In this document: positions 55,876-57,434 of the stretch, one piece after another
How positions within the stretch are numbered: position 1 is the first letter of the stretch
Layout: the number at the start of each line of letters is the position of its first letter
Assembly (NCBI GenBank): GCA_016929495.1
Contig: JAFGIS010000187.1
Location: 1-64,000 of the forward strand
Reading direction: 5' to 3'
Length of the DNA: 64,000 nt
Origin: Polyangiaceae bacterium
Lineage (GTDB): Bacteria > Myxococcota_A > Polyangia > Polyangiales > Polyangiaceae
Made by a program: the position numbers and the translations under genes
The notes under the pieces: model-generated
Databases searched by the model: none
What the model was told of the DNA's origin: nothing
Seen by the model: only the letters and a program-made list of their open reading frames with translations

Positions 55876-56295
55876 TCACGTGCGGGCCCCTCGCGTGGCC
55901 TTGCGTGCACGAGGCCTCTTGGGTCCAGTCGTATTGCGAGGCACCCGCTCGTCCGACTTCCGACTGGCCATAGCGTGCCCGGCGTCGGCTGTGGTTCGGG
56001 GCGTCACCCCTTTGGTGCTGGGCCAATACTCACAGTCCCACGCCAGATGGAGGGCCGCGCCGTCGAGATCAGGAAACAGCGTACGCCGGTTGACTCCGAA
56101 ATCGTTCAGCTGGCGCCGGATCCTCTCGCGGCTCCGGCGGGAGACCACGAGCTGCCGATCCGAGGCCATGGGCTTCCAGGGCGTGGACTGGAGGGTGAAA
56201 ACCGACGATTGGGCGGCCACTCGTGGGCTGATGTTCGGCGTCCGGAGAATGTTCTCTTGGCAATCATGGGTGTAGCACGGCGGGTCCACCGACAT
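55876..56295 (-). pseudogene. C-terminal remnant of an FRG-domain protein
   Basis: 139 aa. The best-conserved end of FRG domains is readable: DPPCYTHDCQENILRTPN, PRVAAQSSVFTLQSTPW and QLNDFGVNRRTLFPDLDGAALHLAW (compare GxxxxTLFPDLDGLAxHL). The N-terminal FRG motif (W-FRG) is absent: no frame upstream (56296-56745) carries it, and that interval is instead the hairpin-dense DNA described separately. So I read this as a 5'-truncated gene. The basic tail after the domain (KRPRARKATRGART) looks intact. Confidence 0.6.
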
Positions 56296-56745
56296 CCTCG
56301 ACCGTTGACGGGTTCGCGTTCGTCATGAAGCACTCTCACTTCGACCTGCGCCCGTGTTGATTCTCGCTTGCTCCAGGATGACACGACTCCCGTTCCAGCA
56401 GAAGGGCATCTGCTCCTCGGACGCCACTCGTCCTGTCGGGTGCGCCGCGCCCTCGCTGTTCATGTCGGACTCCACGCCAAGCGTGATCCGATCTCCCCTC
56501 CCATGCCCGCCGCGTGGCGGCTCGCGTCCGCGCGAGACGACACGCGCCGGGCATAAGGGAGACGGCCACTCCCCAACGTGGCTGTCGACCTTCGGTCGCC
56601 AGACGTTGGGGCCCGCGCGCGCCGGCATAGCCGGCGCGCCCGGATGGGGGGTGGGCATCATCCCCAACAAGGCGCCGAACTCGAGACGAGCATCGGCGCC
56701 TCCCACAGAAGTCGCAGCGGTCATCGCCCGCCACAACGTAGGCCC
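56296..56745. other. Gap between FRG remnant and VapC gene
   Basis: Long overlapping ORFs exist on both strands but have no family features and conflict with one another. Most of the interval is taken by the hairpin-dense element at 56397-56700. Confidence 0.6.
56397..56700. ncRNA. Candidate structured RNA: ten perfect hairpins in 304 bases
   Basis: Stems (arms, plus strand): AGCAGA/TCTGCT 56397-56414; GGACG/CGTCC 56419-56433; CGGA/TCCG enclosing CACGC/GCGTG 56466-56490; ATGCCCG/CGGGCAT 56503-56554 enclosing CTCGCG/CGCGAG 56521-56536; GGGAG/CTCCC 56557-56573; CCCCAACGT/ACGTTGGGG 56571-56611 enclosing CGACC/GGTCG 56586-56598; GCGCGCCGGC/GCCGGCGCGC 56617-56639; GGATG/CATCC 56642-56663; GGCGCCGA/TCGGCGCC 56671-56700. 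They abut with almost no spacing and include nested pairs, the pattern of a folded RNA rather than chance. Strand is undecided. No matching family can be named without a covariance search; the surrounding 450 bases have no credible CDS. High GC content makes short stems easier to find. Confidence 0.5.
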
Positions 56746-57174
56746 TCAGCCCAGCGGATTGACCCACCGGAGCCCCGGGAACCGCGCGAAGTCGGAATCA
56801 TTGGAATGGAGCTCTGCCTGATGCTCGATGGCGATGGCCGCCAAGTGCGTGTCCGTCGTCAGGCTCCCGCCGACTCCGGTGGCTCGAAAGAGCTCCTCCA
56901 GGATCGCCAGATGTCGAGGCCCAGGCTCGACAATGCGGACTTCCGGCTGGTCGAGCCAGCGCCCTACGCGCGCCAACGCGTCGAGCGGTGCCAGGGGGTT
57001 CTGCAGGACCGAGGGGTGCGTCACGAGTCTGACGAACCCAAGAGCGACCGCCCAGGCAAGCCCCACCGGCTGCTGACGCGTGATCAGGTCCTCCCACCAC
57101 CGTCGTGCGTGCAGATGCAGCGGAGCGGCCTTGTTGTGCGCGTAGACGAGCAGGTTCACGTCGACGATGATCAT
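56746..57174 (-). CDS. PIN-domain toxin, VapC-like
   Basis: 142 aa. PIN-domain acidic residues are in MIIVDVNLLVYAHN (Asp), LAWAVALGFVRLVTHP (Glu-position neighbourhood is AVAL-GF, so the second acid is unclear), TTDTHLAAIAIEH (Asp) and LHSNDSDFARFPGLRW (Asp). It is the size of VapC ribonuclease toxins that cut RNA. The start overlaps the antitoxin stop by four bases (ATGA), the usual VapBC arrangement. Confidence 0.85.
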   Translation of the reverse strand: MIIVDVNLLVYAHNKAAPLHLHARRWWEDLITRQQPVGLAWAVALGFVRLVTHPSVLQNPLAPLDALARVGRWLDQPEVRIVEPGPRHLAILEELFRATGVGGSLTTDTHLAAIAIEHQAELHSNDSDFARFPGLRWVNPLG

Positions 57175-57434
57175 CGGCCAGTCCCGATGCGGCTCCGGTC
57201 GACTTCCAGATCATCGACCAGCTGATTGAGCCGAAGCGGATCGACGCCAGGCCGAAACGGACTCTCGAACGTGTCCGCCCGGAAGGGCTCCCTGCGCGGC
57301 TGGCGGTGCGTCTGAGCGGAAAGGCCGCGCCGCAGCGTGTCGTTCAGCACCTTGCGGAACGACGTGCGCTGCTTGTGCGCCATCTGCTGCAGTTTCTCGG
57401 CGAGGTCGTCATCGAGCGCCACGGTGGTACGCAC
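57171..57434 (-). CDS. VapB-like ribbon-helix-helix antitoxin
   Basis: 87 aa. The N terminus MRTTVALDDDLAEKLQQMAHKQRTSFRKVLNDTLRRGL is a classic ribbon-helix-helix: a short strand and two helices that would bind the operon's operator as a dimer. The tail (RREPFRADTFESPFRPGVDPLRL) should wrap the toxin. Immediately followed by the PIN toxin gene. Autoregulation is expected from the family. Confidence 0.88.
   Translation of the reverse strand: MRTTVALDDDLAEKLQQMAHKQRTSFRKVLNDTLRRGLSAQTHRQPRREPFRADTFESPFRPGVDPLRLNQLVDDLEVDRSRIGTGR

Follow-up and report, generated by a model that had tools for sequence, protein, structure and literature searches.

The window, a stretch of 64,000 nucleotides from a Polyangiaceae bacterium, contains a non-coding, hairpin-rich interval at positions 56397–56700. 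The interval is bordered on the left by a DUF4340 gene on the plus strand, and on the right by a gene pair of the VapBC toxin–antitoxin type, identified by PIN (E 4.6e-12) and RHH_1 (E 5.4e-5) matches. A preliminary description of the locus recognized this pair and proposed a setting of the mobile-DNA type with non-random structure, and both views are borne out. The truncated FRG gene that it placed next to the interval (open reading frame 55876–56295, minus strand) matches no Pfam family, even with the threshold relaxed to E ≤ 10.

The nested hairpin array is real. The stems on which it was based are present in the sequence (Table 1), and the interval passes comparison with shuffled controls on both strands. 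The RNA fold of 56397–56700 has an energy of −174.5 kcal/mol on the plus strand (z −6.0) and −187.3 kcal/mol on the minus strand (z −6.8), with none of 100 shuffles as good in either case. The core 56490–56670, folded as single-stranded DNA, reaches z −8.4 on the plus strand and z −9.3 on the minus strand (0 of 200 shuffles as good). No Rfam family scores above the gathering cut-off for the window or for six further loci, in agreement with the earlier label "undescribed", and at a relaxed threshold (E ≤ 5) the window gives only weak matches that are eukaryotic miRNA and lncRNA noise. The 304-base array is one unit only in part: homology extends over approximately 56494–56663, and no homologues of the outer stems at 56397–56490 and 56672–56700 were detected.

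The core of the interval, 56494–56657, is, judged by its sequence, a decayed and solitary copy of a repeat that is dispersed through intergenic DNA and that we call repeat A, rather than a lone non-coding RNA. In the sense of the minus strand, the copy begins with TGCCCACC at position 56657, which is the conserved sharp end of the family; the conserved GGGCA end occupies 56653–56657. The match of the covariance model to the window copy covers 56574–56657 (E 0.0093 in 306 kb), and its inner end is misplaced because a second repeat, repeat B, is taken for hairpin 2. In the DNA fold, positions 56498–56502 are paired to 56557–56561. The purine arm has the family consensus GGGAGGGG, from which the GGGAGACGGCC of the window departs.

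Table 1. Features of the repeat A copy in the window and of its right-hand neighbor.
Feature	Position	Strand	Basis or remark
Window copy of repeat A, split by repeat B	56494–56657	−	BLASTN and covariance model
Pyrimidine (Y) arm of stem P3, TCCCCTCCC	56494–56502	+	Read from sequence
Hairpin 2, ATGCCCG...CGGGCAT and enclosed stems	56503–56554	+	RNA and DNA folds
Stem ATGCCCG/CGGGCAT	56503–56509 and 56548–56554		In sequence
Purine arm of P3, decayed, GGGAGACGGCC	56557–56567	+	Compared with consensus of intact copies
Repeat B, separate 41-nt hairpin between purine arm and hairpin 1	56571–56611	+	
Nine-base stem CCCCAACGT/ACGTTGGGG	56571–56579 and 56603–56611		In sequence
Hairpin 1, CCG.CGCGCGCCGG[CAT]CCGGCGCGCC.CGG	56613–56643	+	Folds; covarying hairpin across family
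Third-strand arm GGGGTGGG	56648–56655	+	Matches family arm; triad covariation across copies
VapBC-type toxin–antitoxin pair (PIN and RHH; VapC/VapB)	56746–57434	−	Right of repeat

The hairpin of repeat B is found at the same place inside L002, another repeat A copy of this genome, and it stands alone at L003, L004, and L021; it is therefore a separate repeat. Weaker copies are present at L005 and L016. Uninterrupted copies of repeat A, such as L033, lack repeat B at that place. At L003 and L004, repeat B seems to be inserted in a gene that resembles, by eye, an IS91-type transposase.

Repeat A is dispersed within one myxobacterial family, and the genomes that carry it include those of Sorangium cellulosum and Minicystis rosea. 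BLASTN aligns the interval to L002 with 71% identity over 156 nt (E 6.9e-8), and further matches comprise several short hairpin copies in the same genome and copies of the repeat in other genomes. A query taken from a related-genome copy (L007/L033) has matches in 67 of 108 genomes from the family, frequently with several matches apiece, of which the weakest may be due to chance. Model searches performed genome by genome identify eight to nine copies in the genome of the window (nine at E ≤ 0.01) and up to 24 elsewhere. A wider, strictly filtered search across the phylum scores in 5 of 237 sampled genomes, all from the window's own family. A scan of GTDB contigs for the exact pattern of hairpin 1 yields mostly chance matches in unrelated taxa, and its informative matches come only from Sorangium, Minicystis, and related myxobacteria.

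Nearly all copies are intergenic, and most are located between convergent genes (37 versus 11 between divergent ones), according to a heuristic gene caller used without annotation. In three species (L248, L262, L270), an orthologous solitary copy follows one and the same gene, 3–4 bp past its stop, and the flanking DNA has diverged between them. Thus, some solitary copies have been retained. In Sorangium genomes G019 and G141, repeat A occurs every 2.5–7 kb amid clusters of similar gene sets (L063, L064, L065). Two repeat A clusters, at L067 and L069, adjoin genes resembling VgrG of type VI secretion. One subfamily (L235, L236, L239–L241, L266) adjoins an apparent IS transposase C-terminus (LVATAHDLRKLYRRR), and both its flanks are conserved, as though it lay within a larger repeat.

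Intact copies of repeat A have the order 5'-CCCCTCCC-[hairpin]-GGGAGGGG-[hairpin]-GGGGTGGGCA-3' on the plus strand of the window. Aligned in the minus sense, they share the sharp start TGCCCACC and two hairpins, and the final GGGAGGGG pairs with CCCCTCCC. The covariance model of 21 copies contains 13 pairs with two-sided changes, and its covariation score is 0.197 compared to 0.079 after shuffling (0 of 500 as high). The homologues of the repeat thus carry covarying pairs, as the preliminary description expected of a genuine structure. The pairs of stem P3 switch between C-G and T-A with hardly any G.U intermediates, which suits DNA. One feature argues the other way: on the minus strand, hairpin 1 keeps a T.G pair that is near-invariant (A.C on the plus strand), which suggests recognition of the minus strand and not of the plus.

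The third arm of repeat A is complementary to nothing else in the repeat and mirrors the purine arm. The compatibility of the two arms under purine-motif triad rules is 0.819, compared to 0.667 (sd 0.024) for permuted arms, with 0 of 20,000 permutations as high, in a set of 105 copies with perfect P3 and 27 distinct arm pairs from which shared ancestry is not fully removed. Register 0 gives the best triads, with 0.82 versus at most 0.69 for shifted registers. For variant purine arms, compatibility with the third arm of the same copy is 0.838, versus 0.675 with the consensus arm. Ten distinct purine arms have a perfect (8/8) third strand, and most intact copies form 8/8 triads; the window copy, with its decayed purine arm, retains about 6/8 by hand count. 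Opposite A, the third arm carries A or T alike, an interchange that is allowed by purine-motif DNA triplexes (G.G-C/A.A-T/T.A-T) and not by pyrimidine-motif ones. Antiparallel Watson-Crick pairing of the third arm, which is the 5' arm in the minus sense, with the purine arm was rejected, as the two show no such covariation (z −0.24). By these sequence characteristics, repeat A belongs to the class II intrastrand DNA triplex motifs of the PIT/BoxC/TM kind, with hairpins replacing the short loops. We infer that the triplex may form in cells.

Genes encoding DUF559 proteins recur downstream of repeat A. A Pfam search of 13 genomes detected DUF559 in nine of them. The Sorangium genomes and G003 are rich in repeats and gave no DUF559 matches in this search, and DUF559 therefore cannot account for every copy today. 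In the nine genomes, 60 DUF559 genes have sufficient sequence on their upstream side; of these, 27 have a repeat 0–700 bp upstream on the same strand, usually at a distance of 300–420 bp, and none has one on the opposite strand; the other 33 lack a model-detected repeat. An independent scan, whose sole criteria were the triad rule, perfect pairing of P3, and the TG start, places the repeat upstream of 23 of 64 DUF559 genes, compared to none in the opposite orientation, 1 of 67 downstream, and 0 of 640 in shuffled controls. A literature search for DUF559 together with repeats retrieved nothing relevant.

Three units of repeat and gene in genome G054 (L273, L274, L342) are approximately 99% identical over about 800 bp and differ in their flanks. 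The unit extends from about 5 bp ahead of the repeat to beyond the DUF559 stop. Several units are accompanied by direct duplications of the flank, 80–243 bp in length, the left copy of which stops 0–9 nt before the repeat. The duplicated flanks are the 3' ends of host genes, which resemble by eye uppS at L351, a MoxR-type ATPase at L267, and an HU-type protein at L293. The uppS-like gene is uninterrupted in two related species, the sole related empty site that was seen. The window copy has no DUF559 gene beside it.

The unit at L274 encodes a 121-residue protein that matches PF04480 (E 1.6e-26). A profile of 33 relatives identifies PDB entry 3hrl (E 3.6e-21) and the homing endonuclease I-Bth0305I (3r3p, E 2.6e-4). 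The structure predicted by AlphaFold has a mean pLDDT of 89, and a Foldseek search with this model returns 3hrl, 3r3p (9.8e-5), and Vsr (1vsr, 3.9e-3). Both the predicted fold of the catalytic domain and the sequence profile agree with an EDxHD/Vsr-like homing endonuclease. Vsr acts at T.G mismatches.

We propose, with a probability of roughly 0.6, that the window contains a solitary, decayed repeat A, and that intact repeat A is the triplex-capable left end of a DUF559 mobile unit of about 0.8 kb. One strand of the repeat would fold in the order Y arm, hairpin 2, purine arm, hairpin 1, and third arm. The Y and purine arms would form the duplex P3, and the third arm would fold back along the purine arm into a purine-motif (reverse-Hoogsteen) triple helix. 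Better-preserved copies would constitute the left end of the unit, which encodes the putative DUF559 endonuclease of about 120 residues and Vsr/EDxHD homing type. Solitary copies, including that of the window, would be non-autonomous or remnants, and the window copy would have been interrupted later by repeat B. The decayed insertion considered in the preliminary description was the closest of its guesses: the decay is evident, and the element is rather a copy of a dispersed DNA repeat that carries a second repeat.

We further suggest that the DUF559 nuclease drives the movement by cutting near the 3' ends of genes. The unit may enter by recombination on the gene side and by end-joining beside repeat A, and solitary copies may have arisen by the same nuclease route. 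More tentatively, and at somewhat less than even odds, the DUF559 (EDxHD/Vsr-like) unit with a triplex-capable repeat at one end could be a small mobile element of a new kind. Such an element would enter the 3' ends of housekeeping genes, with the gene staying whole, and leave many solitary repeats in myxobacterial genomes; its nuclease would recognize the T.G mismatch of hairpin 1.

Repeat A could instead be an ordinary dispersed palindromic repeat of the REP/MITE type, mobilized by another transposase and carried as a passenger by the DUF559 units. The many copies in Sorangium, where DUF559 matches are absent, fit this explanation, as does the subfamily abutting the apparent transposase C-terminus. 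However, the orientation and spacing of the repeat relative to DUF559 are fixed, and the boundary of the unit is at the repeat. The consensus of 21 copies also contains no conserved GTAG tag, and the two ends of repeat A do not form inverted repeats. We consider a passenger role rather improbable. A G-quadruplex is far less probable still. The G tracts of the plus strand (GGGAGGGG and GGGGTGGG) would build a quadruplex of two blocks, for which hairpin 1 would serve as the long loop, and the mirror symmetry of the arms would be a by-product. The commonest copies do have four tracts of three or more guanines with 1-nt loops, but subfamilies without four such tracts (GGGGAAGA with third arm AGTTGGGG; GGAGGAGG) retain 8/8 triads, and a quadruplex fails for copies of the GGGGAAGA type. 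Nor would a quadruplex require the third arm to mirror where A falls within the purine arm, as it does.

It is also conceivable, albeit unlikely, that the repeat functions as a structured RNA. The minus-strand transcript of repeat A would then be a leader or 3'-UTR element, and its link to DUF559 would be that of a cis-regulatory leader. The minus strand folds slightly better, and hairpin 1 would combine a near-invariant U.G pair with a conserved UC/UGC internal loop. The codirectional position upstream of DUF559 and the orthologous copies just past the stop of one gene in three species are also consistent with an RNA. Against this, the arms of P3 exchange almost only Watson-Crick pairs, and the third arm, with A or T alike opposite A, obeys the triad rules of purine-motif DNA. 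Most copies are located at unrelated intergenic sites, often between convergent genes, and Rfam offers no match. The same DNA-like changes argue against the undescribed non-coding RNA and the orphan guide-RNA scaffold of the preliminary description, and no guide-dependent nuclease gene of the IscB/TnpB type was noticed among the neighbors of the copies looked at.

The evidence for natural three-stranded DNA has so far come mostly from single conserved motifs. The third strand of repeat A changes together with the purine strand, which is the type of evidence by which RNA helices were established. Natural variants of repeat A provide ready compensatory mutants for asking whether triplexes matter in cells. 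If the link to DUF559 is causal, a widespread domain of unknown function gains a function, and dispersed bacterial repeats gain a homing-type route.

Repeat A resembles the E. coli motif TM-ECO (formerly PIT/BoxC) in the succession of pyrimidine arm, loop, purine arm, loop, and third purine arm, and the two share triads, dispersal, intergenic sites, and many copies (PMC4666352). Repeat A contains the triads characteristic of PIT/BoxC/TM motifs (G.G-C, A.A-T, T.A-T) over at least 6 nt of one strand. In contrast to their short loops, limited to 1–6 nt in ITxF and to 0–10 nt in an earlier survey (Hoyne) (PMC4666352), those of repeat A are hairpins of roughly 25–90 nt, and the repeat would therefore be missed by those scans. 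The arms of repeat A vary and covary between copies, unlike those of TM-ECO. The linked nuclease gene is a further difference, as no gene for mobility was found in the surroundings of the E. coli motif. Bacterial intrastrand triplex motifs have been linked to genome instability, and no stable triplex of the E. coli motif was found in cells (PMC4666352).

The REPtrons of REP/RAYT systems, including CGTC-tagged ones (PMC3733652), likewise combine gene-bearing autonomous units with many short, solitary intergenic palindromes. Repeat A differs from them in that no GTAG tag was seen, the linked gene encodes a DUF559 endonuclease, and a third covarying arm is present. The CGTC-tagged REP family was rejected as a candidate, since CGTC-like letters are not conserved in repeat A, and the paper describing that family mentions no myxobacteria (PMC3733652). 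Unlike the terminal inverted repeats of a MITE, the TGCCCACC start and GGGAGGGG end of repeat A are mirror-related, and the duplications at its units measure 80–243 bp, in contrast to short target duplications.

Homing endonucleases of the EDxHD type have been described as a family (PMC3943268). The DUF559 units may be compared with these EDxHD/Vsr-type enzymes (I-Bth0305I) and with intronless homing, and the DUF559 protein shares its predicted fold and sequence profile with the former. The similarity extends to the position of the units at the 3' ends of conserved genes and to the uninterrupted homologous site in related species. The DUF559 units differ in being free-standing and without an intron, in having the 3' end of the host gene duplicated beside them, and in bearing a structured repeat at one end. 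Intrastrand triplex motifs as such are already known; to these, the sequences of repeat A add hairpin loops, covariation of the arms, and a linked gene for a putative nuclease.
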